Origin: Psococerastis gibbosa
Taxonomy: Eukaryota; Arthropoda; Insecta; Psocodea; Psocidae
DNA length: 64,000 nucleotides
NCBI GenBank assembly: GCA_963971405.1
Contig: OZ020489.1
Location: 41,866,510-41,930,509, forward strand
Reading direction: 5' to 3'
Positions 13,101 through 62,537 of the stretch are shown piece by piece. Positions within the stretch are counted from its first letter, which is position 1. Each line of letters begins with the position of its first letter. The notes beneath the pieces are model-generated. The model made no database searches and was not told the origin of the DNA. It worked only from the letters and a program-made list of their open reading frames with translations. The position numbers and the translations under genes were made by a program.

Positions 13101-16100
13101 TTTAATAGATTTCTATAAAAAGAAAAATTCTAATTTCCGTCAATTTCATTTGCATTCTGCAATGCGAGATCGGTGGAAACGCAACCTAAGTTTTGAATGT
13201 CTGCTACCACGTCACCGTTTTTGGAAATAGCCTTAGCCGGTCAATGGAATGGGCGCCTTACCCTCGAAAATAACAACCGAAATTCGCAATCAAGAATCTG
13301 CACAATGCGAGACTGAAAGCCTTTGCGGAGCATAGTGTTGACATCTACACTAAATGTGGAAATTTACAAACTTGCTGATGGTAACACACAACTCAATTGC
13401 CCTGGAAATGTACCGATCATGCGTTCGAGTCCCGGCCATACAAAGTTGAATCAGAACCACCAGGACAGAGCCTGCTCAGAACTGCAGCAAACTTGGTAGT
13501 GTGTCCAGCGTTGGCAGGGGCACATAGTGGGAGTAGTGGGACATGATAATCCACAGAGACTGCCAGTCAGTTTAAGTGCGTGTCGAATCCTGGTCACCTC
13601 CTAATTAATCGTCACGCGTGACTTTACTATGTTCCCCAAGTGGATCGGAATCCACTATAATATAAATAATTAGATTACTCGTGACTTCGTGGTATTTCAT
13701 TTTAATAAACAAAAAATAACAAAAACTTAGAGTTTTAGAAAAACTTGTGATAACAACCCGAATTAGTAAAACCCAAATAATCCCCCGATCCCAGTCCTAT
13801 ATAAACCAAGGTTTCCTCTCCCTAGTCACATTTGCATATTTTCCTCGAGTTGAGCAAGTCTCAAATCGCAGATAAGGTGTAACTGTGCTAGTGGGTTTCC
13901 CTCTGTAGATGGCAGTTCTTGCCGAAAGCGCTCAGGGTTTTATACTAACACAAGTGGGTTTCTTAGACAAAGTTAATTTCTTAACGATTATTTGGGTTTT
14001 ACTAATTCGGGTTGTTATAACAAGTTTTTCTAAAACTTAAAGTTTTTGTTATTTTTTGTTTATCCACTATAATTAGGAGGTCCACTCTGGCAGTCCACTC
14101 CCTTTCTCCCTGGGGGGGGGAGGGGGAGGAATCTGCCCTTAGGGTGCCTCAAGTTAAGAAGAGACTCACTCCCCCGCCAGGCTGACTGGGTTGCCTAAAT
14201 GCCATAAACATTTCACTATACTTTTGAATGTGGATACTGGATTTGACCAAAAATCATCTTCTTTAATACCATTTTCGCTACGGTTTTTTTTCCTCATTCC
14301 ATAATTACTGTGGGTACTTGGTGTTATTGAAATTAATGGTAAAGGTTAAGTTTAGCTACCCCGCTGTATCAAAAGTCGAATGAAAATTTGCAAGGGAATT
14401 CAAATTTTAAGCAAGGGTTCTCTTATTTACATGCCTCTGACAATGTTCCTTCCATAAAAAAGTTTATGAGCAATTTGTCCCTATGCCTGCCCATGCAAAA
14501 ATTCGAACTAAATTCGGCTGGAACTCAAAAACTATAGTTTTCCGACTTTTAATTCTTTCGGAAATGGGTTTCTTTAAAGCTAAATCAACGATATAGAACC
14601 AAATTTTGTGATTTTATGAGGGGTAGCTAAACTTAACCTTTACCAAATTAATAAATCTACAGGCAGTTAAATAACCTATTAATTACGAAAGAAAGACAGA
14701 AAATTGTCTTTATTTTACATATGGGCGAATTTTGGGCCTTTCGGCCCACTCATACAAATATTAACCCATAGTACATATCAAAATATTGAAGAACATCATG
14801 TTCAAAGGTACGCCATCACAAGGCATGCCTATCAGTCTCTATCTTGCTGCCATAATTGAGATGACATACCTTAGAAGAAATGTACCTTTACACCGTGGAG
14901 CAACAATTCCGGTATCAATCGAAACTCGACTGTTTACAAAGTGTCTCAAAGAGTTAAAGAATGTCAAATGGGTTTCCCTATTATACTTTATACTATCCTC
15001 ATTTAAGCTAGATGCACTTTAAGTAGGGCAAATTAAAGCTTACAAGCAGCGGCCAGAGGCCTCCACATTCCTAGGCGTTTCGTAACAATCTCTTTCATGG
15101 ATCATAACAACAATGCCCATAAACTGAATGTAGGCTCCGTGCAACCTAACCAACCAAGTAACTAGGCACTAGACGATTAGAAAAAGATGCACTAGGTTAT
15201 GAAAACAATTTAAATATAACAAACATAACAGAAGCATAATGTAAACTAATCACCTACCTACCAAAAATTAATGATCATCCATAGTAGCAGCTGCCTGTCA
15301 GGTTCTAAGGTACACAAACATAAACAAGGGTTTTTAAATTACAATTAGACAATTCACTGTTACTAAATAATTGTTATAACAATAAGTAATTGCACTAATA
15401 AATTGACACTAATTAAAGGCACCGACTTTCCGAAATTAATTAAAAAATTGCACTTATAAACAAACAAAACATTACCGTCGGAAGGTTTACAAAACACAAA
15501 AACAGCATGGTCGGGCGGCTACAAATGTGGCGTCATCATGGCATGTCCTCCAATCATAGTAAGGATAGTATCCCGCGCTTTTTCAAAACTTTGGCAGAGC
15601 TGGTTTCCAGTTCTGTTGCCTTTTTTTAAAAACAAAAAATGAATGTTTGAACTCTTTAGCGTGATGTTCCTCAATTTTACTCTTTAATATTATGCCAGTA
15701 AATTTGTTGAAAATAAAAAAATTTCTAACCGTTGCTATGCTATAATATTGTCACGTTTTTACGTAATATGTACTTAGAACAGGTTTTTGATCCAGCATAT
15801 GGCTAGGAGAGACACGTTGAATGGTTTGTGTATTATGTAGGCTAGTGTTCCTAATGCGAGTGAAAAACTTCTGCTTGTGGATGTGTATTAGGCTTCAGTA
15901 AACAAGAGTCTCAATAAATTGGAAAGCACGAAGGTACGGTACCGAGTTAATTATTATGCTGCATGCTGGTTAATATACATAGTTCCAAATTTTGATTGAG
16001 ATGCACAACGTTTTCAATTAATTTTTTTTAGTACAGCTGCTAAATTTCAATCAGAGGTACTTGCCTGCTGTATAGCTAAACGGTACAGTAAGAAGACTAT

Positions 16101-19100
16101 GTTTATGTAGGCATCAACACTTACATTGGTCATCTTAAAAAATATTTCAGGTTGGTAAGCTGTTAGTCCGCATTTTGGCGGTTACCCCTGCAATAATATT
16201 ATTATGCAACTGTGATAGAGACTGAAACACTATGAAAATTATAAGCATTTTTAACTGTCGTACTCGTATAGTCTTATGATACCCCAGACTCAAAGGGCAG
16301 GATGAGTCTGAGGTAGGTATTATAGAACACTTATTCCTAACTTAACCTAAACACGTTATACAAAGGAATATGAAACTTACCCTAAGGAATAAGAAGAGGG
16401 TGACTTGTACTTGTGCATATGAATGCGCCGGCCCTATCCACGTCCTCTCATTCGCCAGTCATCGACGCCAAGGGTCGCCAGCTCTACCTCGAAGTCGTCC
16501 AGCCATCGCATCCGTGGTGGTCCCACTCGTCTTCTCCCTTAGGGCGCCTTATGTAAGGGCGTAAGGCTGCTCTTGTAGCCATATTTTCTGGCTCAAGCAT
16601 ATCAATATAGCTACTGCTGTAGGCAGGGACGGATCTAGCCCTTTTTTTGGGGGGGGGGGTAGTTGTGGGTTAAAATAGGAAAAACATACAGTACGGTATG
16701 TAACATCGATTAAATCAGAGAATTTACAGCAGATTTACCAAATTTTTTGTTGGGGGGGGGGGGGGCAGCTACCCCCCTATCCCCAGTATCTGTCCTTGGC
16801 TGTAGGCAGTTAAAGATGAAATCAGATAGTTCAATTCAATTTTTATTTCGTTCAATACAGTATTGGTACAATACATGTAAAAATAAGCCTAATCTAACAG
16901 CAGAGTTAAGGACGATATAAGTTGTATTTTTCAATATAAATGACACTAGAAACCTTTACTTTTCAGTGGCCCATTGAATCAATGCCCTGTCTAACGACCT
17001 CATGATTTTTAAGATACCTACGGTACCATACTATATTGGCATTGATTTCCGTATGAATTCTAGCCCCTGGCAAACATGGTACACTTCAGCTCAATGTCAA
17101 CACACTCTGGCTATACAACGGACAAGCTGAGACATGCTTATCATTGACACAATACAACAATATAGGCTTCATCACGAATTAACCAAGGACATGTAAAGTA
17201 GTGGTACAGACTCCGACTTTCAGGTTGCTGGTTCGAGACTTCGAGTCCCCCACTTGCTACATTTTGTGGAGAGCATGTAAAGCAGGCGGGTCTTCCTAGT
17301 TGAGTGTAACAGAGGGCTATAAAGCCTTAACTCCACTAGGTTGGCTTAGTAATAGAACAAAAAATGTCAATGTTTATTTATTTTCTTATTTCTTTACCGT
17401 AGCCAAGTTCGTGTATGAGGCTAGCCTATAATATAAAATCAGGGTTGTCTTCTTAAATTAATAGATGGTATGTTGAGGCCATTATCCCATAATGATACTG
17501 ATAGCGCGTTATCTCTGAGTTACAGGGTCGCTGTGTTATCAACAGCAGTCACAGTTGTTGGAAAATGTCTGTCCCACCGCCGGCATGTCTGTCCACGCCG
17601 CTTCAGGTCCGGGCGAAAACTCTGATGGGTCCGGGCCCATCCAACTGCCCGGACCGGGTTTTGAAGGCCCTCAGCTTACCTGTTCTAGGACATTTTCATC
17701 AGACCACCTTCAAGGTAAGTGGGTATGTTATTCGTTTCCCGCCAAAAATATATATTTTTTAAATTCCTGTGGGCACCTGTCACTTCTCCTGCGACCAGTC
17801 ATTGATAAATCGTAGCATGTGGCCCCAAGGATTTATAATATGTTTTTGACGGCTCCAATGCCCCATCTCTGTTATATTGAACTCCAGCAAGTTCCATATT
17901 GATTAAGATTGCTCCCACTATCGCTTGAAAAGTCCCGGTAAGGCCCAGGGGGGTGGTCCAATGAGGCCGGATCCGGATTTCTTTATGTAAACCTGTATTG
18001 TTTGAAGAATTGGAATACATTTATTTGAGTTTGAACACTGGATAGAATGGACTTTCATTAATAAATTACGTAAACAATTTTTTGGACCCCCACCCCCCGA
18101 AATCAAAACCTGAGCACGGCCTTGGGCACCGCCATGCATTGGATGATGTGCCTTACCGAGACCTTTCAAGCGAAGGTGGGACCCGGCTAATTCCACAACT
18201 AAATGAACCGCTATAGGCTATGCTTACTTGCCTACTTTACTTGAGTTGACTCTGCAGGTTGTTTTTGAACTACCGTACGTATAGTTTGCCCCTGCAAACA
18301 CATAACTCTTCCACTTGTCTCTCGACGCTGTCTTTCTTCCTTTATATATAGCACTCATTCATAACACTGGTTTATAGCAAGCTCTATTGAAACTTATGGG
18401 ATGTAGGTAGGCCTACCCTAAGGAATACGAAGAGGTTGACTTGTACTGGATAGATATTTTCACATACATTAATACATTAATTATCCACGTCCTCTGGATC
18501 CCTTTGGTCCATCCGAGCCAGGTCTAGCCCACCCCCCCCCCCTGCGTCCGGCTTGCTTCCACTATACAATGCTACTCCCTCGTTCATATTGTCAGCGGTC
18601 GTCAGCAGGTCCAATACACCAGGCCTGTAGGGCTGTAGGTCAAGCCATCCAGAGCCGCACCACTGCCATCGGCGTACACTTCATGCCAATAGGGAAATCA
18701 CATTTCTTATTTATTTATTTATACTACTTGTTTGAGGAAGGTCTCAATACGCCGGAAGACGAGCTCAAGGGTCAGAAGATACTAGGGTGACAGAAGCTGC
18801 GCTGATTATAGCTGATGATCTCTTATTTTTTCAGATAATGGACGATATTAAAGAGGGCCTGCAGTACATGTTCCAGACCAAAAACACTCTGACTCTTGCG
18901 GTTAGTGGTAGCGGCCACAGTGGAATGGAGGCAGCTCTATGCAACTTGCTGCAGCCGGGCGAAAGGGTTCTTGTCCTCGTCAACGGAATTTGGGGCGCCA
19001 GAGCCTCAGATATGGCTGTTAGATATGGTTAGTAATGTATTATGATCTCAGTAGTGAAAGTTTGAGTCAATCAGAGCCCCTACATACTCAATTTTTCGAA

Positions 19101-22100
19101 TAAACTAAAATTTCTCAGGAAATATGTAGTAAACCTGTGCTGAAACAAAAATACACAATTGCAAATGAGATGCTATAGGTAGGTAGCCTACTGTATAAAG
19201 TAGAGGAAAAGTTGATGTTTTTTTAATTTTTATAATGGTTAAGTGCATGCAAACAATTTAATAAATGTATCCGACTGACCTCTTTAGTCAGCCAGTTTTT
19301 TTACCTCTTTAGTCGCCTGTGGAGGTTAGAACCCGCGTGTTGAGCTACGGCACGTCTTCGATCGCATGGCGTGCAGAGACTCGCACAAGTACAAGCACGA
19401 GTTCCAAAACTACATACTGTATCACAACGAAGACGAACATTTCTTCGTTTGAAGGACAATTCAACTTCACTTTTTCTAGGTGCTGATGTGCGACGTCTGG
19501 AGGCAACCCCCGGAACCAACTTCTCCCTATCATCAGTAGAGGAGGCCATTGCTAGAGAACGGCCAGCAGTGCTGTTCGTAACACAAGGCGAATCTTCAAC
19601 CGGGGTTTTCCAACCAATAGCCGGATTGGGTTCGATCTGCCGGAAATATGACTGTCTTTTGGTTGTGGACACTGTCGCGTCTCTCGGTGGAGTGGAGTTT
19701 AAAGCTGACGAATGGGGTGTGGATTGTGTGTACACCGGCACCCAAAAAGTCATCGGTGCCCCTCCCGGATTGGCGCCCATTTCTTTTAGTCAACGGGCAC
19801 AGTAAGAATTAAAAACAATTAAATTAAAAAAATTACTTAAATTAGTTTAAAATGGATGAATGATAAATTATTTTTATTCTGTCGAGTCTTAAATCTCAAT
19901 CTTCCGGTTCAAAATTCAGCTCCCTACCAACTGGAATAAACCAGGCTCTATCTTTTTTTATGAGTGACTACGAACAAGGCCGTTTATTTTTCCTTTCAAA
20001 ATCCGATTCTATCTAGTAACAAGCCAATTCGTTTCGGAGGGGGGGGGGGGTTTCAAACCCCCCCCCCCCCCCCCCCATTGGTACGGCCTACGAGTATTAC
20101 TACGAGTATTAGCTGTATACTGTAAGGTACACATTTAACTTTTTTTTAGAGAGAAGATAAACAAACGTACAACGCGGCCCGTGGTTTTCTACTGGGACAT
20201 GGAACCCCTAGGCCAGTATTGGGGTTGTTACGAGGGAAAACCGAGGATATACCACCATACTATTTCTGCAACACTCCTCTATGGTCTCAGAGAAGCACTG
20301 GCTATGGTACGTTTAATACTAGTTACTAATATCCTCACAATAACGGCAATTCCGACGATTCACACAGAAAACTAAAGGATAATTGAATTTCTATGGTAAA
20401 TTGGCAACAGAAAATTGACCTCTGGAGTCAACCTTGAGTCTTCTTACCTACTTGTAGCGGCCCATTGAACCTTGCCTTGACAACGACTCTATCGGGTTTT
20501 CAGACATTATCGGTATTGTTTCTGTATGAATTTTTGGCCGTTGGCAGACTGGTTCAATCCTCGATGTCAACTCACACCGACTAAAAGGGACAATAGACAA
20601 GCTGAGACATGCTTACCATTGTTACAGGCGTTAGCTTGACTTAACCAAGTACGGGAACGAGTCTTAGTCAATAACCCGCGAAATATGTAATGGCTCCACA
20701 ACATTTCACCATGCGGGAAGGTCCTGGAGCGAGAAGACACCGTCCTTGGATTCCCATCCGCCTAAGGTCGTCTTTACTCCCCCGCCAGTGCAGTCAGGGT
20801 CTTCCAAGTCTACCTCTCTGCACCGAGATCTTCTCCCACCATTCACTCCAAATCTAGTATGCCCACCTCATTTGGCACTTTTTGCTTCCGCGAAAATGGC
20901 AGAATTACTGCATATCTGGCCGCGTCAACAGCCTTCAGCTCGTGCGGTGAAGGCCTGTTTTGCTTTCCAGCAGGGCATGAGCCATAGACGAACCAACTGC
21001 CAGGCGAGACCTGGGCTGATGCAGGTTTAGTTATAGACTGGGTTCCGTAAAATTTCTGTTATGCAGGTTGCCGAGGAAGGTCTAACCCGCTGTCTTCAAC
21101 GACACCAGGCTGCTGCGAAGCAGCTACACGAAGGACTGGGCAAATTGGGCCTGCAGCTGTTTGTAGACGACCCGACAGCCAGACTACCGACAGTAACCAC
21201 CGTCCACATACCCAAGGGAGTCGATGCTGCGAAACTGACCCGCCTAGCTCTTGAAAAGTGAGTATGCCACACTAGTGTTCTAAATAGGGCTCATGGGACA
21301 CTGGCTCCTGCCAAGGCCATTTTTTTTTTAAATATCTGGTGCCACCTTCGGCCAATCAGCGCACGCATTGAACACTTCCAAACAACAACAAATCCCATTG
21401 TGTGTAGTATAATATATAAATATCGATTTGTTCATTTATTGGGATGAAGTCTACGCCGATGGTAGCAGTCCGGTGTGTCCTACTTAGAGCCGCGTGAGCT
21501 AAGACTTGCCGTCGTTGAGGGTATCAGCTCAGGCAGTAGGAGTTGGAGCCTGGAGATTTGTCTAAACTGGAACCCATAGCGGCTTGCGATTGAGAGACAA
21601 GGAGGGTACCTGGTGCACATCCCCTGAGCCAGCACGGGCGGGTCCAGGACAGATTTTCGGGGGGGGGGGGGGGGGGCATTCCCGTTTTCATGCAACATCA
21701 ATATACAACATTTTGCCCACTTACGAGTACCACGGACCAGTGGCGTAACGATAGGTTTTCGAAGGGGAGAGGTGTTTCATTTGGGCCTCCCCTGCATTTT
21801 TTTAAAAAGAGGGACGTCGCAGCTTCTTATTAGTCCCTTGCGCAGCCACCCGAGGGTTCAGGGGGGGTCTCCACCGGGGAATAGTTCCGAAAAAATAGGC
21901 CTGAAATATTGAGTTTTACCCATATTCATAAAACGTTTGGATTTTAATAATTAAAAAATAAAATAAAATAAAAATACAAAATATTTCTTTTCAGGTACGA
22001 CTTAGAAATAGCAGGAGGATTGGGTCCTACAGCAGGCCGTGTGCTTCGTATTGGCGTAATGGGAGTGAACGCTGATAGCCGGACAGTGGCGCGATGCCTA

Positions 22101-25100
22101 CAGGTTCTTCAAGAAGTCCTCCTCCAATCACAGCTCTAAAGCCGGAAAAAAGAAAAGATAACCGACAAAGAACCCCAGACCAAATTACCCAATCATGGAC
22201 ATGATGAGACGGCCTTCAGTTACCATGGCAGCTACTAAAACATCATTAAAGAATGATCCGTAAACTAAATATAAGTTACATTTCTAGAATATTTTGTTAT
22301 TATTCAGTACATGAGTACAACAAATTTATATTTGTCCCATTTTACAGCATTAATTAAAAATAAAAAAACCTGTCTAGGTTACAAACTAAAGTTGCTGTAA
22401 ATTCAAAAAATTTTATGGCAAAAAAAAAAATACTCTACGCAAGCCAACCAATCAACATGCAGAACGAGGATTCTCCATAAGTTAATCATGGGCGCTATAA
22501 TTGGGAATTGACCCACAATCTTAGCAGGAAATTAGTCCACTAGTGAAGTAAAACGTTTCACTTCTTTATATAAATTCCACTCATTGTAACCGACGTGAAC
22601 CAAGTTGGTGAAACAGTCTCAGTGTCCTTCATATAATCTGGATAATCTTCTGGATAAAACAAAAAATTTCAACAGTTCACGACAAAAGAAAAATATAATT
22701 GATAACTATTTGCGTATATAATAAATTTCTTGGCATAAATAATAGTTTATCACTTAAAGAGTAAAAGTATTGCAAAAGGCGTAGTACATGTACATCACAA
22801 ACGAGTGACAGACACTCACAATTATTACAAAAAAAACAAATGCAAAAATAATAAGACATCTTAGACTCGATAAGTACAATTGGTCTCCACAATAAAGTCC
22901 TCAGTGTATCACAAATTATTTTTTCAGCTAAGGCGCCCATTCCATTGACCGGTTAGGGCTATTTCCAAAAACAGTGACGTGGTAGCAGACATTCAAGAAT
23001 TAGGTTGCGTATCCACCGATCTCGCATTGCAGAATGCAAATGACATTGACGGAAATTAGAATTTTTCTTTTTATAGAAATCTATTAAAATGTTTGTACTT
23101 AACATATCCCATGACGCCATTTTTTAATTTTAGTTTGTTTGTGATTTTACTGTATGATCATTGATCAATTTTAACTATGGCATAGTGGAAAATAAACATT
23201 CCGTCAATTCTGCAATGCGAGGTCGGTGGAAACGCCACCTAAGCCTTGAATGTCTGCTACCACGTCACCGTTTTTGGAAATAGCCCTAGCCGGTCAATGG
23301 AATGGGCACCTTATTAAAGAAACCGGATTTTTTAACTAATAAGTACGGTATGTACTGACGGATGCAAGGGCCAAGGAAAGCCGAAGGTTATTAATGTTTT
23401 ATGGGCAAAAAACCGCATAACACGACAGCCAATAGATGGTTTATGCCTGAGGACCGATGGAGAATCCTCCGTCTTGACCACTGCTCCATTTGGTAACTTG
23501 TGGCCAGCAACGTGTTTAATCTACGAAGGTACGGCACCGATTATAATTGGGTGAAATAAATGCCGTGGAACCTTATAATAATTATTAATGGGCATATTAT
23601 GGAAGTAGGCCATTGAACTATGCCCTGCCAACGACCCCATCGGTTTTCGGACATTACTGGTATTGTTTCAGAATGAATTTCTAGCCATTTGCAAACTGGT
23701 TCACTCCTTGATGTCAACCCACACCGATTACAAGTGCCAATGGGCAAGCTCAGACATGCTTACTATTGTCATTAACATGTGTTAGCTCGACTTACCAAGT
23801 ATTGGAACGAGTAGGGTCCTCCGTAGAGGGTCCTCTTTCATGAACAGCGCCATTTATGGCAAACACTTGCCCACCAATATCGCAAAGTTCCCAGCAGCCG
23901 CGTTTTTTCTCTAGATACAGTAACCAAAGGCTGGTAGAGGATGAGCCAGGAAAATGGCAACATACCTTGCAGCCGAGTTTTTCCTCTACCGGTGAAGGTA
24001 AAACACCCGTTACGGTTACGTGGACGCAGGCCCAACAGGAAAATATTCCTCTTCCGCCGAGCCTCGACCTCAGGCCTTCCGGTTCATAAATAGTACCGTT
24101 CTCTACCAGCTTGGGGCATGGACGCTGGACCTATCTCATGTATGAGGATCAGAAGATGGTTGGTAATAAATATACTTGAATACTGAAACCTAGCAAGTGT
24201 CGAAAAATGTTTTGCACCCCTGTCCCCATTGGTTTTTTATCCTAAGGCGTTTTCTTACCCCTTGCATCTGACAGTATTATTGAAAAATCAATTTTGCGAG
24301 GATATTTTTGGTAATATAAACTTTATTGCTCGCAGTGGCGGCGGGTCGCTCTCAATTGGAAAACTGGAAATAAACATTGAAAAACAAAGTATTTAGTAAT
24401 GCCAGCTTTAGAAAGGAGGCCAAAGAGAGAACAACCAGACCGAAGAAGGGATGACCTTCGAATATAATTTATAGAAGAAGCAGATACCTAATAGCCAATA
24501 GTTATATATAGCCATAGCTAATATACCAGATAGCCTAAAATAATCTGCATTGGCGCTCAAGAGCTACCCCAACAACTCCGTGCAATAAAGTCCAATTTCA
24601 CAGTCAAACTACCATTGAGACATAAGTAAAAATAACAATTCCTCCATTTTCAACTGTAGTATGTGACAATCACTAACACCGATACACTATATATAATAAT
24701 TTTATATACAAATCAATATACATAACTGTGGCCAGTTGGTGTTAGTGGCGGCCACATATAGCACTATACAAAAAATCATATCAAAATGTAGAGGGACTCT
24801 TCTTTCCAATACGGTCTCAATGACAGCTCTACTACCGATATTTCTCATGATTGTTTTTACACCTATCTAGATTCTAGGGGGATTCCGTCCGTAAGACTCT
24901 TGTATACAGGGCACTGGAAATTCAAAATAAGAGCGGCGAGGCAATACGCATGTAAATGGGAAAGCGCAATCAATGTCTGTAGGACTATTGAAGCATGGGA
25001 ATAAATTGGGATGACAGCTACAAAGTTTTGTCAAAAGAAAACAGAAACCTTTCAAAAGGTAAACTTACCCACTGCTATTGGTAGAATTTTTTTGCTTTGA

Positions 25101-29900: not shown

Positions 29901-32900
29901 TTATATAACCCCTCTATTATACTAGTAATTTTAAATTACGATGGGGGCTAGTCAAGTAAAGTTGTTTTTTATTTATACCTGTTTGAGAGAAGAGCCGTTG
30001 CTGCTGCTGGTGGTGGTCCGCAAACGCCTCTTCATAAATTTGCAATTGCTGTGCCTTTGTCTGTAATAAGATAAATTGGTTACAACGTTTCCCTAACACA
30101 GACAATATTATTATTCTATGCTTGTAAATCCATCGAAAATGTACGGCAGCTTATTAGAGAATGGATTTTAACCTGATCTGTACCGTTCTGCAGCCCTACA
30201 GATCACACTAATCGGGCCTATAAACCCCAATTGATTCATTTGTTTAAAACAAACAGTGCAGAATGATCGGGAAATTGAAATTAAATAACTATTGGAAAAT
30301 AATAAGTTTTATAATTGAATGAAATACAAATAAACATTAAAATGCTTAAATTTTGTAACATATTAAGAAATATTAACGTTTCTAATTCTAAGGGAGAAAA
30401 AATTTAAAAAAAAACGAACTTTTTTGTTTGAAACAATTGAATCAATTGGGGTTTATTTAATCCTATTCCCAGTGATACATTACATTAAGGGGGCTCCATC
30501 GGCCCGGGAGGACCTCTCGCCTGTCGCACCAAGTCCCTCCAAAGCGCGCGATTCTCCGCCAACCCCCTCCATGCGTCGAAATGGATGCTGCAGGCTCTCA
30601 GATCCTCGAAGAGCTGGTCTGACCATTTCTTCCTTGGTCGCTCCTGCAGTCGGTTGCCTGCTGGTTGGGCTTGATACACCCTAGCCGCGGCCCTGGTCGG
30701 GGACATCCTTGAAAGGTGACCAGTCCATTGGAGTCTTCGTGCTCTTAGTTCCTCGGTAACGCTCGGTGAGTTAAAGAGAGTTCGAAGCTCTTCGTTTTTT
30801 CTTATTCGCCATTGCCCATTCTCTATAATCCCTCCGAAGACTCGTCTGGGGATCCTCCTTCAAAGACTTCCAGCATCTGGCTGTCCCTTCTTTTCACCAC
30901 CCAGGCTTCCCCACCGTAGAGTAAGACCGGCCTAATGAGCGTTTTGTAGAGTCTTATCTTAGTTCCTCTTGATATAAGCCTGGATGTAATTAGGCTCCTT
31001 ATTTGGAAATAGGCTATATTAGCGGCTTTGATCCTGCTCTTGATGTCTACCGTATTTCGTTCCTCTCGGTTACGACGGATCCAAGGTATCGGAAACCTTC
31101 CATTCCCTCGAAGATAAGGTCTCCCTCTGTAGCCTGTAGTGGTTGCTGCGGAGGGTTTCTGCACATTCTAAGGCACTTTGTTTTTTCCGCGTTGATTTTC
31201 AGCCCGATTGGTTTCGCTGCCTCTGCCTTCCCCATTTCTTCGGCGTCTTATAGGGTATCGGCCAGGATGTTCAGGTCGTCGGCGTATCCTAGCGCCTTCA
31301 CTGGTTGTTCTGCTCTTAGGGTAGTTACATCGGTGGTAAGTTAGTCGTAAACAACATAGTAGGGCTGCAGCTTTTAATCCTACCTGGGACTAAGAATGTA
31401 ACCAAAATAACTTTGGAATGGAAAGTGCTATTCATAATTGTTTTATTTATTACATTTTAACCCCAGGAATAAGTTAATACTAAATGGCTCAGTAGACCAA
31501 CTGCGGCGATTATATTGATAGCGCAATGCCTATAATTATGCATATAGCCGTATGTTATATTGAGGACTTACCATGGGAGAGGCAGGCAATTTATTTCTAG
31601 GGCGATTTCTCGCCATTCGGGTGGCAGCCGCCGATACAATCGACGCCATGAGATCTTTTCCAGAGTTGGAGTTACCTGCAAGAACAACAATAATAATTTA
31701 TTTCTGTTCTGGCGATTGGTCATAGCTCATAGCTAGTGACACCACAGCCATGCTTCTTATCGGTTCTTGACGTCCGACCAATCTGAAAACATTGTGCATC
31801 CAATATAACATACATAACAATTATCGGAATAATATAAGTGAGCTGAAATTCAGAAAGGCAGTTTGTTTCCAAAACCCTTTTTTTCTTCATTATTATTCTT
31901 TTTCAAAAGTGGGACCTCTACAGTCGTTATTGCGCTACCGGCTTACAGGTTGTTACGCCACTGCTGTTCATTCACTTACCTTCCAGTTTATGTAAATTAC
32001 TAAGTAAAAGCGCGTTCGCCTGACTTGCAGACATCGTGTCAACAACAGGAGTCGTGGCAGCAGCAGCAGCAGCAGGGGCCGTGTCCAGTCCCAGACTCTC
32101 CACCGCATCATTTGAGAAGAACCACTCCGCCTGCACAAAATAACAACGTTCATTATTGCTTATGGAAACAAGAAAACAGGTAAAGTTTGACCGAACTAAT
32201 GCTAAATTTTAATGCACACGCTCGTAATTAGTATGTTAACTGATAGACAATTTCGAGGGCTTGTTTTTGATGTGCACATGTCATATTTTTTAAAATTTGA
32301 AAAATCCAATGATACCTGACGCACATAAGGGTCAGGTTTCATGAAATGTTTTTCCCATTTACGGCAGTCTAGCACGAGCCATAATTTCATTATGAACATC
32401 CAATGAAAAGGCACAGCATTGACTAAGATGTTTGAGCTGATTATACCGGAACCTTAAGGTTAAGGGTTATAAATAGAATATATTATTCTTAAAATAAAGT
32501 TTTGATTTAATTTTTAACATGGCACATGTTTACTCACATATCGTATGAGGGACTCAATGAGGTGGCACTGATGCGGCGTGTCAATAACCATTGCAGTCAG
32601 GTCGGCGGGCCGCACCAGCGTCGGACCGAACACAATTGCCACGTTCATCGCCTCCATCTTGTTTACCCCGCTATTGCCAACAATTTTCCGTAGGTGCAAC
32701 AGTAAGTGGTGTAGTGTCGCTGAGTTATGTACAGGAAGCTGATCTACCTGTAAGCAAACAGAAGTTTTTGAAAATGTTATTAAATCTACAGCAGAGCTTT
32801 CCGAGTTTTTTGAAAGCAAAGGGTGAACCTGTCATTATGACTCGTTCTAACTTAATATATGAGTATTAGAAAAAAAAATCGTAACAAATACTGGCTTTTT

Positions 32901-35900
32901 GAAACACATGACTGTTTACGCAAATGATTTACCTCATTCACTCTATAATATCAGAATAATTAATGCATTTTATTATGATTTTAAGCATTTAATCAAGATT
33001 ATCCGCAATCAGTTATAGTTTCCCGGAGGTTTTTGCCCCTCCACTTCTGATTATTTAGCACTCTCTCAAGCTACAGTAGGGACGGATCCTGCCCATTTGG
33101 GGTGGGGGGTAGTTGTGGGTCAATATAGCAATATAGAACAAACATACGTAGTATCGATTAAATTAGAGCGTAATAAATAAACTTACAACAGATTTACTAA
33201 ATTTTGGCAGCTACAGCCCCCCCTGGATCTGTCCATGACCTCCACTTCGTGTACTACACGACCACGATAGGATGGCACTTGGAACACTTATAAAAATCGA
33301 GCAAATTCTGTGTACCACTTATGCAAGTTTTCGAATAAACAAAGAGTTTTGTCGATTTCTACTGCCATTGGCCTAGTGTAATTTTGATACCAAGTACTTA
33401 CCAAATTTCTAATAGCTAGGAGCCTCTTCTGTTTATCAGATATTTTGTCGGCCTCGATAAACCTAGAGTAGAGGTCGGCAGTGAACAGACAGTCAGGCAG
33501 AGACCGGAAGAAAGACTTGATCAGACTCGACACCACGTTCACATCTCTCCACCGGAGGTCCTGTAACAGAAATATCTAGTTAAAGTAAGGCGCTTAATCC
33601 ACCTACGTCAATATTCAATAGTAAATGTGGTATTGACGTGGTAGCAGACATTAAAGACAGTCTAAAAATGTCTGCTACCACGTCAATACCACATTTACTA
33701 TTGACGTAGGTGGAATATGCGCCTAATGTGCAAGGATTGTTGTCGTCGCCGTCTTCATAGTGCATTTCCACTTTCGTGACTATTAAGAAACTTTCTGTTA
33801 AAGCACTTCCTCTAGTACCAGAACCACTCTCTTGAGATCGTCCTCAATCGGTTCCTGTACGTCATCCTGAGTTTTGCCCCTTCTGCGTGTTCACTGTATT
33901 TCGTCCACTTCTTTCCTCGCGCACTTGTTGTTATTGACTCACTTTATGCGTATTTCTTCTTTATAAGTTTCTTCTAGCGAAGATTGGCGATCATAATGGA
34001 AATTAGGACCTTGGGATTGCTCGTCTGAAAAGGGAAGTCTTGTCAAACCACTGCCTCAGGGTTTTTAGCCAGGCATTCTTCTGCCGGGTCTCTTCCCCTG
34101 GATTATGACATGAAGGCGATATTTTTCGTTCCTCACCACATGACCAAAGTATGATAGTTTCCATTTCTTTACCGTCTTATGTATCTATATGCCTCAGAAC
34201 CGCGGCATTAGGGACACTACCTCTCCATGATATACGAAGCATTCGTCTGCATCAACATTTCAAATGCTCTAATTTTGTTCTCCATAGCTAGGGTCAACGT
34301 TCAACCCTCCATACCATAACCGAAATTAGAGGATATAGAAAAACTGGGCTTAGCGGGATTCTATCCTCTAATTTCGATTATTACTTCAACCAAAGTTAAT
34401 TTAATGTCAGTGTTATATACACCATACAATACTTCAATATAATGTGCCTCCATACCATGTAGAAAGACTGGGAGCCAATACCATTTTACATGTCCAAACC
34501 ATTGTGATCCCTTTCTTACAGTCACAATCAATAATAATATAAAACTTACCTCAGCCGGCACATTGTGAATCCCCTTATTAATCGCCTCCGTGAAACTATT
34601 AATGGCCGCAGCATTCCCCGGCACTCGGTAAACCCCGACAGTGTCCAGCCCGTACGTCTCCACAGCCTCGGTACACCGAGCCACCAGCAGCGGGACGAGG
34701 GGGTCGTCTGGCGAGGGCGGACACAGCTCGAGAGGCACACCAATAGTCGCGCCCTCGGGGTACGCCGTTGTCGGCGAGCTAGGCGACGCCGCACCACCAC
34801 CCATTCGTCTGAACGGCATGCCCAGCTTGCCGCGCCACGTCTTGCTCTTGGGTGACGAGACTAGTTCAGTGTGGGAGGCCTTGCGAGCCGGCAGCGCCGC
34901 TCGCCACCGCTCCGCATCGTCAGCGTCTTCTGCCTGCAGAAGATACTCGGAATCGCGGGGCGCGCGCAGTCGGAGCACGTGTTTTCGTTTCGTGTAGTTT
35001 TCCGCGACATCAACGCACCACCTGCAACGGATAAAATTAAAATGAGGCACTTTTAAACAATGATTTTACAATAGAATTGAAGATTTTCAATTGTTACTAA
35101 CTATTTTTCACCTAAACCTTTAGTGGCCTTTTGCACCCTTTACCGAGCATTACTACTAAATCAGTTCCTCAAAACCCACCACCTTAACAGGATCATGAGG
35201 GAATTCACCCCGTCACATCGACCTCCAGGACCGATCGCCAGCTCGTAGACCTTGAAACAGGGACGATTTTCAGTGGATCAGACCCTCCTTGACGGCAAGC
35301 CCTCTCTAGCCAACACTTAACATTGTAGCTTACCCAGTGACATCGAAAGTCTTCGGCTCGGCTATGCGATCTCGCTGCAGCGACAAAATCAGGTTGGCGC
35401 TGAGACTGGCCCACATCTGTTTCCAGGACCGAACCCCAGCTCTCCGGCCTTCCATCTGGGACAACTTCCAGTGGATCAGACCCTCCTTGACGGCAAGCCC
35501 TCTCTAGCCAACACTTAATATTGTAGCTTACCCGGTGACATCGAAAGTCTCCGGCTCGGCCCTGCGATCTCGCTGCAGCGACAATATCATGTTGGCGCTG
35601 AGACTGGCCCACATCTGTTTCCAGGACCGATCCCCGGCTCTACGGCCTTCCAACTGGGACCACTTCCAGTGGATCAGACCCTCCTTGACGGCAAGCCCTC
35701 TCTAGGCAACACTTAACACAATACCCAATAGCTTACCCAGTGACATCGAAAGTCTCCGGCTCGGCCGTGCGATCTCGCTGCAGCGACAATATCATGTTGG
35801 CGCTGAGACTGGCCCACATCTGTTTCCAGGACCGATCCCCGGCTCTCCGGCCTTCCAACTGGGACAACTTCCAGTGGATCAGACCCTCCTTGATTGCATC

Positions 35901-38900
35901 AGACGTGGAGGTTTCTTTCGGTGACTCCTCCTCACTGCAACACACGAACCCATTAAACCACCAAATAAAGAACTGACACGAGTGAACCCGTACATGATTT
36001 CCTATTTATCAACTAGTATAAGTACCATAATATAACATGAGTAGAAGAAAAAATTGACATAAAAATTAAAATTTGTTACACTTTTGATGGAAATAATAAT
36101 AAATAAATAAAAATAAATGCTTGTAAAATTTAGTTGGCTCGCCTTCCCTCATCACAAAACACTGAATGGATAGAAGGGCCGACTGCATGGTCTAGAACGG
36201 GAAGACCAGTATAATACCAACACAGAAATAGTATGTATTGGGGCATGAATTAGGCGGGGATTCCACCGACCGGTTAGGGCTAAATAAAAAAACGGTGACG
36301 TGTAGCAGACATTCAAGACCTAGGCGGGGTTTCCACCGACCTAGAATTGCAGAATGCAAATGACATTAACGGAAATGTTTGTTTTCCTCTATGCCATAGT
36401 TAAAATTGATCAATGATCATACACTAAAATCAGAAACTAAAATTAAAAATTGGCGTCATGGGTACAAACATTTTAATAGATTTCTATAAAAAGAAAAATT
36501 CTAATTTCCGTCAATGTCATTTGCATTCTGCAATGAGAGGTCGGTGGAAAGCCCGCCTAAGTCTTGAATGTCTGCTACCACGTCACCGGTTTTGTATTTA
36601 GCCCTAGCCGGTCGGTGGAATCCCCGCATTATCAATAAATTAATAAAATATTATTTTTTTATTAAAAACCAAAACTTTGCTTCGGAAAGCAAACGTGTTT
36701 GGTTTTGTTACTTTATTTAACACCTAACACATACCTGAAGTTGGAAAGTATCGATAGAAAGGTTCCGCTGAAAATTAAGTTTTTGTCATTTTTAATGAAA
36801 ATTAGCCTTTTTTTGCCCCCAGAACCAAACTATCAAGGGGCAAGCGATCTGTTGGGTGTTGTTTGAATTAAGGCGCTAAGTACTATTAATAACGACTAAA
36901 AATACTTGTGAATTGAAAGAAAATAGTTGGAGCAGTTTTTGAGAAGAAAATTTTTAACCGTACTTATATTGGGGTTTTTTGAGGGCACACCCACCCAAAA
37001 CCAAAAAAAAGGTACCGAGGTATGATTCTTGGAAAACGAAAGAAATGAAAAATGGAAATCCTAATAAATAAATATTGACTTTTTGTCCTATTACTAAGCC
37101 AACCTAGCGGAGTTAGGGCCATAAAGCCCTATCTTACACTCAACTAGGAAGACCCGGGTCCGGCTGCTTTATATGCCCTCCGCAGCATGGCCAGAAAATG
37201 TAGCAAGTGCGGGACTCGAACCAACAACCTTTCGGGTGAAAATCGGAGTCTGTACCATTACTCTACATTTTTTAACTAGATTTAACTAGAAACCAGTCAT
37301 CAAGGGGAAGGGCCTATCCTACCTAATGTACACAAACTTTCTCGTAACCTACAATTCAATCAAAACTAGAAAGATAAATATCATTCATGTTGGAAAGAAT
37401 TTAAACATACCATAAAAGAAAACTCTATTAAAACATTAGCAACGTAAAACTAAAGAGATCAACAACTCTATAAAAAAAATAGATGCAATAAAAATAGCTT
37501 CATTAAACAATTAAACCCATATTCTGTATGTAAAACATTGGCGTTAAAAATTAAGAAAAAGAAGCCTTAATTAAATAAGCAAAAACAAATATTAAAATCT
37601 AAGCAAGGAACTTCATTGCTAACCAATGAAGTTTCCTACTGCACGGTAATGCAGTTCACCCATGTCACAACTGGGAGTAACTTGTTACAACATCCGTTAC
37701 AAAGTTAAAAGAACTTGGATTCAACCCGTATCCCAACAATTACAAACTAGAAACCAGAATTTATAGCAGTATGATTCTTTTATTATGATTTCTTTTTATT
37801 TATTACTGTCATAAAATATGGAAAATATGGAGTATCGAAATGAAGTTCATGAGAGCAATCCGCCAGAGGACAAGAAGCGATAGTATTAGAAATGGAGTGA
37901 GAAGAGCGTTCGGGGAGGAACAACTATTGGTAGAGAATGCAGCGAGAAGGTTGGGACACGTGAGTGAATGGATAAAAGCAGATCATGGCAATTTGGGATT
38001 ATAATAATACCGCAGTAGTAAGGTATCACTTGACGTTATTAAAATATGCACGGGAAATTCAAATTAATAAATTATTAGAATAGAAATGAATGGTTGCATT
38101 GTTTAATAATTGAAGGAAATACTAATAAACATTAAAATGTACAGGTAGAATTTAGAAATGTAATTAGAATTTTAATTTATGTGTCTACATCTAAGGGAGA
38201 AAAAAAATTAAAAACTCACCAAAAATATTTATTTATCAATTTGAATTTCCCACACATTTTGCACTCATTTGTTTAAAACAACTGAATAAACCCCGGTATT
38301 ATAATAATTCCAAATCGTCATGACCGGGCTGCTGGTGCGTTCGAAAAAATGGCTGGAGGAAGAAATAGTGGGAACACAAGAAAGGGGAAGACCAAGGGTG
38401 AGATGCAGAAACCAAATTGAGGACATCCTCTTTTTTTAAGGACTTTTTATGGACCCATAGGTCCCTTGTCAAATGCCAAGGACCAAATGGATTTCGGACA
38501 TTATTTGTATTGTTTCCGTATACATTTTTGGCCACTGGCAAACTGGTATATGTTCTCGATGTCATCCTACACCAGCTATAAGCGATAATGGACAAGCTGA
38601 GACGAGCTTACCATTTACGCAATGAAACAGGTGGAAGTATGACTTAACCAAGCACAGATACGAGTCTAGTAACGGGGTACTCCGATCTCCTCTTTAATTT
38701 TAATAAATTAATTCCTCATCATTTGGCCCCTATGGGATTAAAAATAATGATAGGCAAAGTATGTGATTCGACTTGGCACTTGTTAGCTTAAGATTCGAGT
38801 CGCTAACCACTGGACTATAGTTTGTAACTGTTGAGAATTGTTGGGACGTACCACTGGGCAGTGCCGGAGTACATTTCGAACAGGCGCCGCAGCCGCTGCA

Positions 38901-41900
38901 GCTCCCCCGGCAGCATGGGATACAGCCACCTCATGTGACCGCTAAACATACCCAAATATAGATGGATAGATAGATGGATAGAAAAGCCTTGTATTTATCA
39001 AACAATAACTACGACATGAATTACAAAGCTATTCCCCTCAAGCCGAAGCGTGTGAGTGTGGCATATGCTAACCACCCCTTGTAATTAATAATACAATACT
39101 ATTGTTATACTACTAGTATTACATCCAAAAATAGGAAATAAATAAAAACATCTGGACAATCTTCTTCTTTAAAAGCCTCATCTATCGAAGATTGGCGATC
39201 ATAATGGCCATTTTATATACAAAGTAACTCAATTTTTAAAGCTATATCCGCAAGCTTTGGCCTTTCTAAGCCAATAACTTACTTCGCAAAGGGGCACCAT
39301 TTCCTGTAAAAATAGTTCTCTATTGAGGTTTTTCTTTTTCTTTCATTATCATGCTTATTGTGTTTTTCCTCCCTTTTTATTTTTAAATTCTTAAAGTTAT
39401 TTTTTTAAATGTATAGTTCTAAAATTATAAGTTATTTTAAATTAACAGGGGGCCCCAGCACGGGTCAATCCTTTGGGGTCCCCCAACCCCCTATTAATGT
39501 AACATACTCTGATTCAATGCTATAAAAAATTGTTATTATATTATTTGGACCTTGCAGACTGCAACTCTGATGGGGGAAATCGTGCTCCCGCCAAACCACC
39601 CTAAGTTTTTCAACCAGGATGTTTTTCTTCTGCCAGGAGCCCCCTGTCCCATCTTCGACCAATACAAAGCCTTCCCTACACTGACGCGTAAATGAGAAAG
39701 GAGAAAATGCCGGCAATAATCACTATCCCATGGTAGAAAGAGTACGATACTAAAAACTATTTCCTCTAAAACCGCAATACACCCTCCTAGATAGAGTTTT
39801 ACCTTTTCGCGGGGGAATCGGTGGGCTCGCCAGAGGTGGCTTTGAGATAGGAGATCCTTCGGCAAGTTCTTTCGTCCACCGACAGAGCGCTCCTCCCTCG
39901 CCGAACCACGCCTTCCGCCTGGCTTGTTGTAGGAACTGTATTTACAGGAACTGCAAGTAAACCAATCAAAGTACCAGATAGCCAAAAATAAATAAATAAA
40001 TAGTGTAGTCAACATAATGTTCTGGCCAATATAAAGAGATACAAGACAAGTATACTCTGCCCTAGAGGGCGAAAACAGGGACGAGATCTTGTTTTTTTGT
40101 TTTTAGGGCGCTTTGTGCGTTTGTGGCATATGCGCCAAGACGAAATTAAGAGAATTAAAACGATGGCTAGGAAGTAAGATGGCTTCATATCATTGTTAGG
40201 ATTTCAGTATGCTGGACAAAGGCTGAAAACAATTAACCACATATACTGTGCAAGTGTTACGCCAACCATCGTCAACTAACATGAAAAATCCCTGTCGGCT
40301 GACTGAGGCATAAAGAAAAAGAAAAGAAAGAAAATTGTCTTTATTTCCCATATGGGCCTTTCGACCCTTTCTTCCAATTAACCACAAGTTTGATGCCAAC
40401 AACAATCATCTTACAAAATGATGTTTGCGTCGCATCGCATATGCATTGCTGTGCAGGATAGGTCAACTAGTTTAACTTTAACTTTACTGAGAACACATAT
40501 TTTTTTCATTCTTGAGATAGATAATGTGAAATCATCAGTAATTGAAGCAATGAAATGGCTTATAGCATTATTTAGTACCGTATGATAGACGTTAATGATG
40601 TAAAGAATGAACCCGCCATTAAGTGAAGCAAATTCAAGAAAATGCGCTAACAACCTTGAACCTCCAAGCCCTCATACCAAAATCATCCCAAACCTAACCA
40701 AACCTGGGAAACTCACATTTGCTTATCATATATCCCTGAAAACTGCATTTTAACAAATAACAGTAAGGTCCGCGATAACACATGGTTTGTAGTCATTTAA
40801 ACAACACACGTAGAAATGTCAACAGTGATAAGAGCCATTACGAGAGGAAATAAACAACTGCATTAGTTTTTACGTTTTGATAGAGATTTCCAAATATTTT
40901 GTAAATAAAAGACGCCCCAATATTTTCGACAAAATTACTAAATTCAACAGCAAAGTTAAGAAAATGGTCTCATTGTTTAGGCATTATCTTGTGGCAGAAA
41001 CCAGTGGCGTAAATAACACCCCCGCGGTGCGGGAAGGCGCAGCATTGCTGCGGGGCGCACTTCGGCTCCCAAAAATAATAAAATCATTTATAAGCCTACG
41101 TAATTAATAAAAATATTGAATTCAAATTGTTATCCATGTTAACTAATATTCCACTATTCCACTCATAAAAATGATTACACAGTAAGACAAGGTAGGGCGC
41201 ACCAAAGGGGGAAGGGGCAGCAAAAGTTATTTACGCCACTGGCAGAAACCCATTTGTAATACTTTCTACATACACCTGAGAAGCAAATATGTATATTAGT
41301 AAGCAGGTTCCCCAAAGCACATGTATGGACTCCTCTACCAACCAAGTAAGAGCAAAACAGTAAATATCAGCAAGTTTCATCAGGGAGTAACATTGGTTTA
41401 AAATCGTTAAGAAGACAGGGTGTGGGAAGTACTAGCTATGAGCGTACTCATTACGATACATACCGCGACAGTAATATAAGATAAGCTTGCCTTTTCTTTA
41501 ATTAAATATTGAGTGACGTGTCTTTTTAAAGGGAATCTTTCCAAATGTTTTGAAAACAATATGGCTTGAGAGCTTAATGATTAATTTATCGTTCCACTGT
41601 GGCTATATTGGCAACATCGCCCTTTGAACACCCCCTGAAATATAACAACTTTGATAATACACAATACATTTGTTTACATGAATTATTGGTAATCTATAAA
41701 ATAAGACGGCGTATTCCAGAAATAGGACTTACTTTATCGATTTTTATGGATTAACGATGGTTCACAAGGCGAAATCTATAGTGCATTATCACAACTTATA
41801 TGTTTTGGAAGGTGTTTAATGAGCATTTTTGTCAATATAAGAGCTATAGACCGAAAATCAATTAATTGGCTTCCACTTTTGTTAAAAAAAAATTACCTTT

Positions 41901-53900: not shown

Positions 53901-56900
53901 TATACGCAGGTTTTGTTCGCCGGTATTCATGGAGTCACGTTTTCATATGAGGTGTTTTTGGGGTCTTACCTGTCGTAAAACATCATGTTCTTTAGGCACA
54001 AAGTAAGGTGCAGCGTGTTCTGGGTTCCATTCTATTGATACCAGAACTTCAAGGTGCCAAAAGCCAAGCCATAATATGCACCTTTCGCTCTGACAGGGTC
54101 GGCGTTTTACACTCTGTGCTTCTGGGCTCATGACCTTGTAAGCCTACATACCTGCTGTGTAATATCATGTTACTTAGGGCCGGCCCCGGCTCGAGTTTTA
54201 TATAGAAGAGATTTGCAAGTAATAATATATAGTAATAACATATTAATTATAATTATATACGTATATATTTATCCCAATCGTTTAAAATTTTTCTTTTCTT
54301 TTATAGCCCCGGGTATTTGCCGTGTTTGATTTAATTACCGGGAACGTCATTGGTCAATTATTCTATAATGTTAGTTTAGGTGCCCATTCCATTGACCGGC
54401 TAGGGCTATTTCCAATAACGGTGACGTGGTAGCAGACACTCAAGACTTAGGTGGCGTTTCCATCGACCTCGCATTGCAGAATTGACGGAAATGTTTATTT
54501 TCCTCTATGCCATAGTTAAAATTGATCAATGATCATACAATAAAATCACAAACAAACTAAAATTAAAAAATGGCTTCATGGGATATGTTAATTACAAACA
54601 TTTTAATAGGTTTCTATAAAAAGAAAAACAAACATTTCCGTCAATGTCACTTGCAATCTGCAATGCGAGGTCGGTGGAGACGCTACCTAAGTCTTGATTG
54701 TCTGCTACCACGTCACCGTTTTGGAAATAGCCCTAGCCGGTCAATGGAATGGGTGCCATATGAGCACTTGAGGTAGCAAAACCGAACTACGACACAGGAG
54801 GGATTGGCACAGCTCTACCATGCGACACGGCGTCAAATGGCCTTCCAGCTTAGGACGAGCGTTGGCTGAAGAAGAGGAAGAGTTCATGAGAAGAGGAAAA
54901 AAGTGGGCCACCCTTGGGCGCATATTCCACCTACGGCAATAGTCAATAGTAAATGTGGTATTGACGTTTGAGCAGACATTAAAGACAGTCTAAAAATGTC
55001 TGCTACCACGTCAATACCACATTTACTATTGACTATTGACGTAGGTGGAATATGCGCCTTAGAGCCTCGCCAATACCAAGGTCCCAGCCGAGGGCCGTGA
55101 GCGTTGCTGTTTTCATTTTTCAGGACCACTACCGGCCACAACTACCTCCTTTCCCACCTGTATCGCATCGGGGTCCTTGCTTCGGACATCTGCCTCCTGT
55201 GTAACGAAGGCGTAATTAATGCAGAACATCTACCCGAGTGCCCAGCCCTGCTGCCCGGGTAAAAGGCGGGGAAGCCCAAACGGACGACATCTTCCAGGAG
55301 ACAGCGAGGAGATACTGGTCAGCGCGTCACCAAATGGCTAACCTGCCAAGGGTGGGCGTTGGCTAGTAAGTACCATGCACGTAGTTTAAATGATAGGTAG
55401 TTAATGTTAGTTACCTATGTGGAATGATATGCAGGTTAGGGAGTACGTTGTATAATTTAGGTGTAAGTGTCTTTTAAGCTTATTCGTGAATATTTTAAGG
55501 TTAGGGCTGTTGATTGGATGATGGGAAATTCGCTCACACCAAGGATATATTTTGAATTCATTGTGAATCTACTGCCACGTCTTTTTCGCCAATCCGAGCT
55601 CGCCTTGGACGACAACCAACCAAAATGCCACCGTGACTGCAAGGCGTGCTCTGATTGGCCGAAGACGTGGCTGGTGACACCAGAATTAAAAAAAAAATCC
55701 TTTACAAGAGCGAATGTCTTATCTCTTCTATGTAGAACTCTCGGTTCACTAATACACCGATAGAGTCTCGCTTTTTACCCTTTGTACTTTTTGGAATCAT
55801 GCATAGCTTAAATACATACCTGTTGTATAACATCACTTTCTGTAGGCACAACAACCAGGTGTAATCTCTGCGGCGTATTCTGGATCATCCGTACAACATC
55901 ATTGTATGTCTTCCCTTCCACCTGTTCCCCGTTCACACTAATCAGTCTGTCTCCTAGAAACACGAAAAAGACATTATTATTATATAAGCTTATACTTAGG
56001 GACAGGGAGGAGTGAAGGAAGCTTATTTATCACACCCTGCAGTCAATGTTAAAATGTCATGATGATGATTCCTTTCAGGGTAGGGTACTAGATTGGGGAA
56101 AAAGAAGATCAGTACTCCCCGGGTTAAGGGGGATCCAGTGACCCCCCCCCCCCCCGAATTCTTCTCCTGGATTATAACATGCAGGACAGCAGGAGGCGAT
56201 ACTTTTCGTTCCCCAATTAACCACCAGCAGTAACTCGGCTTACAATATCCATTCTCCTCAGGGCCAGGCCCGTACCCAGGTTTTTTTTGGGGGGGGGGGG
56301 CAAGACCAAATTTTTTTTTATATAAATGAAATATCCGTAGTAATTCACCTGTGAGACTGTCAATACAATGACCATCCGGCCTCGGCGTTAGGGAGTGGAT
56401 CTCTCCAAGATATTCACGAATCTATCTATTAACTCCCAACTCGTCGGTTTCTAATTCGCCCTTCCTAGCTGTTTCATACCTGCAGTCGTCCTCCCGTAAT
56501 GCTTCCTTTGCACATTTTGTTCTGGCATTGCTATAACGCGTCCAAGTCAACTTAGGCAATGCATTTTTATAAAACGAGCTGTCTTCTCCCCCCCAGGCTT
56601 CCACTGTAGAATGATCTTCACAATACTTAAGTATCTCATTATGTACCCAACTCAGAGAGCTCTCCTTTGTGTTTTTCAGGCAACCAGAATTTGAACTTCA
56701 TTAGCTTATATAAGGATGGTTTCATTAGAAATGTGCCAAGATATTTTTAACCAACTAACACAAGCTATCTTTAATCTCAAGATCATCTCAGCCTCGGCGT
56801 GATCCTCACTCATTCATTCAGTACTCCTGCGTATGCGCCTTCCCCCTTCGCACACCCAGAAGCAGATAGCGCAACTGACTTCCCTTGCTAATTCTCCTTA

Positions 56901-57097: not shown

Positions 57098-57939
57098 CTG
57101 TAACAAAAAACATCAAGTATTAAAAAAGAAAATAAATAAATAAATAAATAATTTATTTGCAAACACACCTAAAAGATCGATAGAAAATCCGTGTATTTCT
57201 CAGCAAAAAAAAAAAACAATAGGTGGACATAAAATTACAAGCTCTCCCCCTCAAGCCGAAGCGTGGGAGGAAAAAAAAAGCGGACTATTAATTATCCTTG
57301 TTATATAAAACTATGGCCAGGTACAGGTTACACTTACAAGTTTCTTTAATAGTAAAATATATATACACAGTATATAGGTAAATTTATCGTATATATATAT
57401 AGTTAACAGACCAAAGCCGCTGTTAAAGCCTAAAGTCGGTTAATGTCAGTTATGAAGTTCGTTTTCTGTCCAATGAGTGATTTCGCGTTTGTAGGCTTGC
57501 CAGTCCTTCTTCTCGATATGGATTGGTTTGCAGATTCTACACTCTTACCAGTCCTATGTATCGTATATTTTGGTATCCAGTATAATAGTTGTGTATGTTT
57601 TTTAATGTAAAAAAGTACAAATAAAATAAAATTTTAGTTATACAATGATTTTAGAGTAGTACAATATCAGTAGGAGGGGACCCTTTAGGACGAGCCTGTG
57701 CTGGACCCCTTTTTACTATAGCTAAAAGCTAAAACTAAAATATAAAATATAGGGCTAGGAAAACAAGCAGCGAATAATAATAATAAGTGGCGATAGACAT
57801 GCTGACATTCTGACATGTAATTGTATAGTGTTATTGCTTGATAGAAAAGTGAGCGTCCAATCAAATAGAAATCTTACACAGAAAATTCAATGTAATTTAA
57901 ATTCCTTCAATGGTATAATCTGAGGTATGCTTACAATTG

Positions 57940-59405: not shown

Positions 59406-59413
59406 GCTGAAAA

Positions 59414-59660
59414 CGTTCGTGTCGAGTCCTGGTCACCTCCGATTTAATCGTGAGACTTTTCCATGTTCCCTAAGTGGTTCGGAATCCACTATAATCAGGA
59501 GGTCCACCCTGTCAGTTAACTCTCCTTTCCCCGAGGTGAAAGAGTCTGCCCTTAGGGTGCCTCAAGTTAACAAACAGATTCACTCCCCCCGCCAGACTGA
59601 CAGGGCTGCTTAAAAGCAGAAATGCTGAAAGCAGGTGTTTGAAACAACAACAACGTGTAA
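59414..59660 (+). mobile_element. SINE-like repeat B, 5'-truncated
   Basis: GTGTCGAGTCCTGGTCACC to the AACAACAAC tail. Confidence 0.65.
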
Positions 59661-62028: not shown

Positions 62029-62190
62029 AACACGTAATGTAGTGGTACCGACTCGGACTTTCACCCAAAATGTTGTTGGTTCGAGTCCCGTTCTTGTTCC
62101 AGTCCAGTCCCGGCTGATAGTGGTAAAGAGATTCTGCTAGGAAGAGGTTTGTGAAGCCGAGAAAAACAAAGAAAACCTTTAGTGTGAAGT
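62029..62190 (+). mobile_element. tRNA-derived SINE A, variant body
   Basis: GTAGTGGTACCGACTCGGAC (A box), GTTGGTTCGAGTCCC (B box), then a body AAAGAGATTCTGCTAG not shared with the 17194 copy. Confidence 0.7.
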
Positions 62191-62537
62191 TGTTGTTGTT
62201 TCTAACGCCTGCTTTCAGCATTTCTGCTTTAAGCAACCATGTCAGCCTGGCGGGGGGAGTGAGTCTGTTTGTTAACTTGAGGCACCCAAAGGGCAGACTC
62301 TATCACCTCTGGGATGGACAGGGTGGACCTCCTGATTATAGTGGATTCCGAACCACTTGGGGAACATGGTAAAGTCACACGATTAGATCGGAGGTGACCA
62401 GGACTCGACTTATACTGCCTAAGCGCGTTATCATGTCCCACCAGGTTCCCCTGCCAACGCTGTGCACACTACCAAGATGCCGCAGTTTGAAACATGCTCT
62501 GCTCTAATGGAATCAACATGGTAAGGCCGTTGGCTCC
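62186..62537 (-). mobile_element. SINE-like repeat B, inverted
   Basis: Near-full inverted copy from GTTGTTGTTGTTTC to GTAAGGCCGTTGG. It directly abuts the SINE A variant. Confidence 0.68.

Follow-up and report, generated by a model that had tools for sequence, protein, structure and literature searches.

Tandem exon copies with pseudo-exon members have been described in Drosophila Gr39a, where the sections of the report drawn on here also mention recent copies and/or gene conversion (PMC2204066). New introns are described, in the parts of two reports used here, as originating from tandem duplication across exon-intron boundaries (PMC4974935, PMC3443670), and Dscam exon 6 and other mutually exclusive arrays provide a third point of comparison (PMC1431710, PMC6071210, likewise drawn on in part). 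Within a window of 64,000 nucleotides of the Psococerastis gibbosa genome (contig OZ020489.1, 41,866,510 to 41,930,509), the end of one exon is repeated in the intron that follows it. The arrangement is of a kind already known, both as tandem exon copies with degraded members and as duplication across an exon-intron boundary, and from the sequence it is very probably a recent, most likely neutral, tandem duplication of part of exon 11 within intron 11. Two of the copies, here called B and C, are open, and in all likelihood neither is an alternative exon.

Like Gr39a, the locus carries tandem exon copies in one gene, some open and some degraded; unlike Gr39a as described in the sections cited, only the exon tail and its donor have been copied, without a real acceptor, and the junction with exon 10 is stopped. 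As in the accounts of intron gain, an exon-intron boundary has been duplicated and splice signals have been carried along with it. In contrast to those accounts, as far as the cited parts go, it is the donor side that is copied here, and the spacers between copies are 30-37 nt long and are not known to be spliced; they do have GT and AG ends, but at 37 and 30 nt they fall below the 40-50 nt of the shortest intron class named for Drosophila. The resemblance to Dscam exon 6 and similar arrays is that the copies are similar, exon-like and of equal length modulo 3 (168, 168 and 198 nt), and the 37- and 30-nt spacers would be a bar to joint splicing. Unlike the arrays described in the parts of those reports used here, B and C have no clear acceptor of their own and little divergence, and they do not join in frame to both flanking exons, a TGA arising from exon 10.

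The host gene lies on the minus strand and is, as judged from its domains, ARHGAP21/23-like (RhoGAP19D-type), because PDZ, PH and RhoGAP matches (Pfam) follow one another in the order expected for the ARHGAP21/23 (RhoGAP19D) family and the best PDB match of the PH part is 2dhj, the ARHGAP21 PH domain (E 2.7e-11). A PDZ_6 match lies at 55808-56026 (4.6e-7) and a PDZ match, below the Pfam cut-off, at 56888-57112 (0.0059); judged by order and strand, these PDZ exons probably share a transcript with the PH and RhoGAP exons. PH and RhoGAP matches fall in exons 9-12, with further RhoGAP matches at 33291-33572 and 32514-32831. We take ARHGAP21/23-like genes to be the family of Drosophila RhoGAP19D. 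Exons 9-12, when joined, form a single open frame. The 3' part of exon 9 as used here (39803-39935, its 5' border being one of two CAGs) ends AAA AG in phase 2, and exon 10 (38852-38941, 90 nt) ends TG, which with the first T of exon 11 gives TGT. The PH domain is split between exon 11 (35737-35934, 198 nt), which has its first half and whose tail is referred to as copy A, and exon 12, which has its second half. Exon 12 starts at 35021 and also encodes the start of the RhoGAP domain; its other border, 34500, is nominal only. The Drosophila orthologue RhoGAP19D is reported, in the part of that study cited here, to be without a PH domain (PMC7927664), whereas the present gene has kept a clear one across exons 11 and 12 (35934-35737 and 35021-34500, minus strand; Pfam 8.2e-9).

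Downstream of copy A, the last 157 nt of exon 11 and the 41 nt that follow them (donor, spacer and junction) are repeated head-to-tail in intron 11 as a unit of 198 nt. The unit of copy A itself is 205 nt, with 48 nt in place of 41 nt after the exon part. The start of the unit, TCAAGGAG, stands at 35893 in A and recurs at 35688 (B), 35490 (C) and 35292 (D), and B, C and D all begin with the same junction, GGGCTTGCCG followed directly by TCAAGGAG. TRF reports the array at 35224-35893 with a period of 198 nt, 3.3 copies and a score of 1074, and of its eight rows for the window the other seven show no period above 27 nt; in a comparison of the window with itself (E 1e-5), the array matches itself only, among the 143 hits listed. 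An earlier note, made from the sequence, had described a PH-domain exon followed by three tandem copies of its tail, two of them open, and this description holds, as do the coordinates, lengths, spacers, open frames and donors that it gave. Copy B (35532-35699, minus strand) is an open pseudo-exon of 168 nt with four changes from A over 157 nt and a GTAAGC donor from 35531, and copy C (35334-35501, minus strand) is another of the same length with eight changes and a GTAAGC donor from 35333. The units are 94-96% alike, and B and C differ from each other at 11 of the 157 exon positions. Of the 168 nt that the note gave for each of B and C, the first 11 nt are the intron end of the unit, not exon 11 sequence. 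Both spacers, that between A and B (35700-35736, 37 nt) and that between B and C (35502-35531, 30 nt), run from GTAAGC to CTAGAG, and a 7-nt indel sets the spacer of A apart from the others. Copy D (about 35209-35292, minus strand) is an older, decayed copy: it has diverged from A at 12 of the first 69 positions, contains a TGA in frame and has lost a net 73 nt (by arithmetic on the alignment), a loss that shifts the frame.

These features can be accounted for if a tandem duplication took in the end of exon 11 with its donor site and the beginning of intron 11, and if unequal exchange between the repeats later produced the four-copy array while retaining the same junction. The later copies probably arose by such exchange and not by separate events, since B, C and D have the junction in common. 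Splicing would normally run from exon 10 to A and from the donor of A to exon 12, so that the copies would be removed with intron 11; B and C would look intact by virtue of being young, while D would be old and decaying.

It might be thought that the open frames and intact donors of B and C point to a function. Under a neutral simulation with 4 and 8 changes, both copies stay open with P about 0.56, and a 6-nt donor would remain intact with a neutral chance of 0.86 in B and of 0.70 in C, the latter computed with nine changes where eight are counted. Both outcomes are thus likely by chance at this low divergence. The note had also remarked that replacement changes outnumber silent ones. This is so as a count, with 7 or 8 of 12 depending on the reading of one codon with two changes, but it is no departure from neutrality, under which a fraction of 0.73 is expected (p 0.32 and 0.53). 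By hand, the ratio of replacement to silent changes in B and C is about 0.5 of the neutral value at 7N:5S and 0.7 at 8N:4S, neither significant; weak constraint on B and C is thus possible from a ratio below neutral, while the change counts within the window, which are small, reveal no purifying selection on either copy.

The spacer part of the unit serves as an internal control for these counts. No change among the 157 exon positions sets A apart from B and C together, against 4 among the 41 spacer positions (Fisher p 0.0016), whereas B or C alone carries a change at 12 of 314 exon-like positions and at 1 of 82 spacer positions (p 0.32); the contrast between the two patterns has p 0.0021, on small counts and an unrooted tree in which the four A spacer changes may sit on the stem of B and C. 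From these comparisons A looks constrained as a working exon, and B and C look free of detected constraint. The scarcity of exon changes specific to A could also come from gene conversion of A into B and C. The same breakpoint before three copies, a pattern of change without a mark of selection (on the same few changes) and the decay of the older copy are what a neutral tandem duplication would leave.

How B and C might enter a transcript is limited by their borders. The only acceptor candidate of either copy is CTAGAG, inside the copied intron start, and it offers two possible AGs; pyrimidines make up 7-9 of 16 positions before these pseudo-acceptors vs 8 of 16 before the true exon 11 acceptor. 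Joined to either copy, exon 10 always produces a TGA, because it ends TG and both acceptors are followed by A; the note had predicted this stop, which arises with either AG. An exon 9 join, which the note had called open, is so through the GAG acceptor, reading into exon 12 over the stretch translated, and is not so through the TAG two bases upstream, where a stop follows nine codons past the junction. For each copy, then, one of the four junction types tested is open, and the exon 12 side is in frame. A TAG acceptor is usually preferred over GAG. With pseudo-acceptors not clearly poorer in pyrimidines than the real one, and donors almost identical in context to that of A, occasional use of the B or C sites is possible on this sequence.

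Of the three options that the note had left side by side, namely decoy donors, an isoform that skips exon 10 and a neutral duplication, the last is thus favoured and the isoform disfavoured. The first, that the donors of B and C compete with that of A and lead to unproductive transcripts, would make the array a poison-type switch, perhaps with a strength that depends on copy number. Three GTAAGC donors stand in a row in near-identical context, and exon 11, read through its own donor toward that of B, meets TAA at once. Decoy use of either donor would yield a truncated protein; however, there is no sign of selection keeping B or C, and we regard such a switch as improbable. That it should be tuned by the repeat, with working donors and a copy number that varies between individuals, is very improbable on present sequence; were it true, the yield of full-length protein from this cell-polarity RhoGAP would vary with the number of competing donors.

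The isoform would use B and C, rarely, as mutually exclusive alternatives to exon 11 in transcripts that skip exon 10. Its attraction is that the exon 9 join through GAG is open, that the donors are intact and that the short spacers make joint use of copies hard. It is nevertheless highly unlikely, for three reasons: first, it needs both the skipping of exon 10 and the use of GAG in spite of the TAG two bases before it; second, the version that uses that TAG is stopped; and third, no constraint is detected on B or C. The alternative-exon reading is set below that of neutral duplication on two grounds, the stops at the junctions and the failure to detect constraint.

It is also conceivable that the array is an artefact of assembly in which a repeat was wrongly multiplied, as tandem repeats are easily misassembled. 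This is extremely unlikely, because repeated reads would not give copies with 4 and 8 changes from A in 157 nt and 11 between themselves, a spacer of A that is set off from the others by a 7-nt indel, or a copy as heavily changed as D. Finally, the notion that the spacers are newly gained ultra-short introns and that the protein contains repeats of the first PH half can hardly be credited, even though the spacers run GT...AG, A, B and C joined across them read without a stop into exon 12 as far as the translation goes, and new introns are documented to arise by tandem duplication in the parts of the reports cited (PMC4974935, PMC3443670), for the spacers are shorter than the 40-50 nt introns that a Drosophila study, in the section used here, classes as ultra-short (PMC5762160), half-domains would be inserted into the PH fold, and the openness takes no more than stop-free copies and a frame match, which by chance we estimate at near one in three.

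Other readings of the array and scans of the window yielded little. A coding reading of the array in another frame (a 144-aa open reading frame at 35639-35205) is not notable: the C unit is open in one frame, but so, in one or more of the six frames, are 38% of 5000 base-shuffled units equally long. Non-coding RNA was considered and none was found in the window (Rfam at gathering scores, ARAGORN), a scan for bacterial promoters and terminators gave nothing useful, and in a search for relatives in viral contigs 16 stretches matched a pattern and none of them encodes a relative at E 1e-3.

The window holds several further elements. An element of about 390 nt occurs four times (12870-13273, 22916-23313, 36252-36627 and 54376-54760), and its copies are 82-95% alike when compared in whichever orientation matches better. 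Over their length, three copies also match themselves in reverse complement (73-77%), while in the fourth (22929-23313) inverted ends of 107 nt are 93% alike, a structure reminiscent of a palindromic mobile element. One copy, 36252-36627, is located in intron 10, some 320 nt upstream of exon 11. Dispersed repeats at 6547-6879, 9747-10141, 59413-59658 and 62171-62535 are 75-92% alike and SINE-like in size, with no tRNA or Rfam match in scans of the window. An element of about 145 nt at 33586-33726 and 54914-55061 (86-90% alike) matches its own reverse complement at 83% and 90% in its two copies. On the plus strand at 18736-21261, open frames form, by resemblance, a candidate alanine-glyoxylate/serine-pyruvate aminotransferase gene, the one fragment of them scanned (18736-19032) having no Pfam match at 0.01. 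On the minus strand at 30485-31247, open frames look by eye like the remains of a LINE reverse transcriptase, the one fragment scanned (30823-31167) again having no Pfam match at 0.01.

In summary, open frames and intact donors at 4 and 8 changes per 157 nt are no evidence of alternative exons, and the neutral duplication in this ARHGAP21/23-like gene would be a clean example of partial exon duplications soon after their origin, open, with good donors and apparently unused. If the donors of B and C do compete with that of A, the array would be a natural setting in which to test how copy number influences donor choice.
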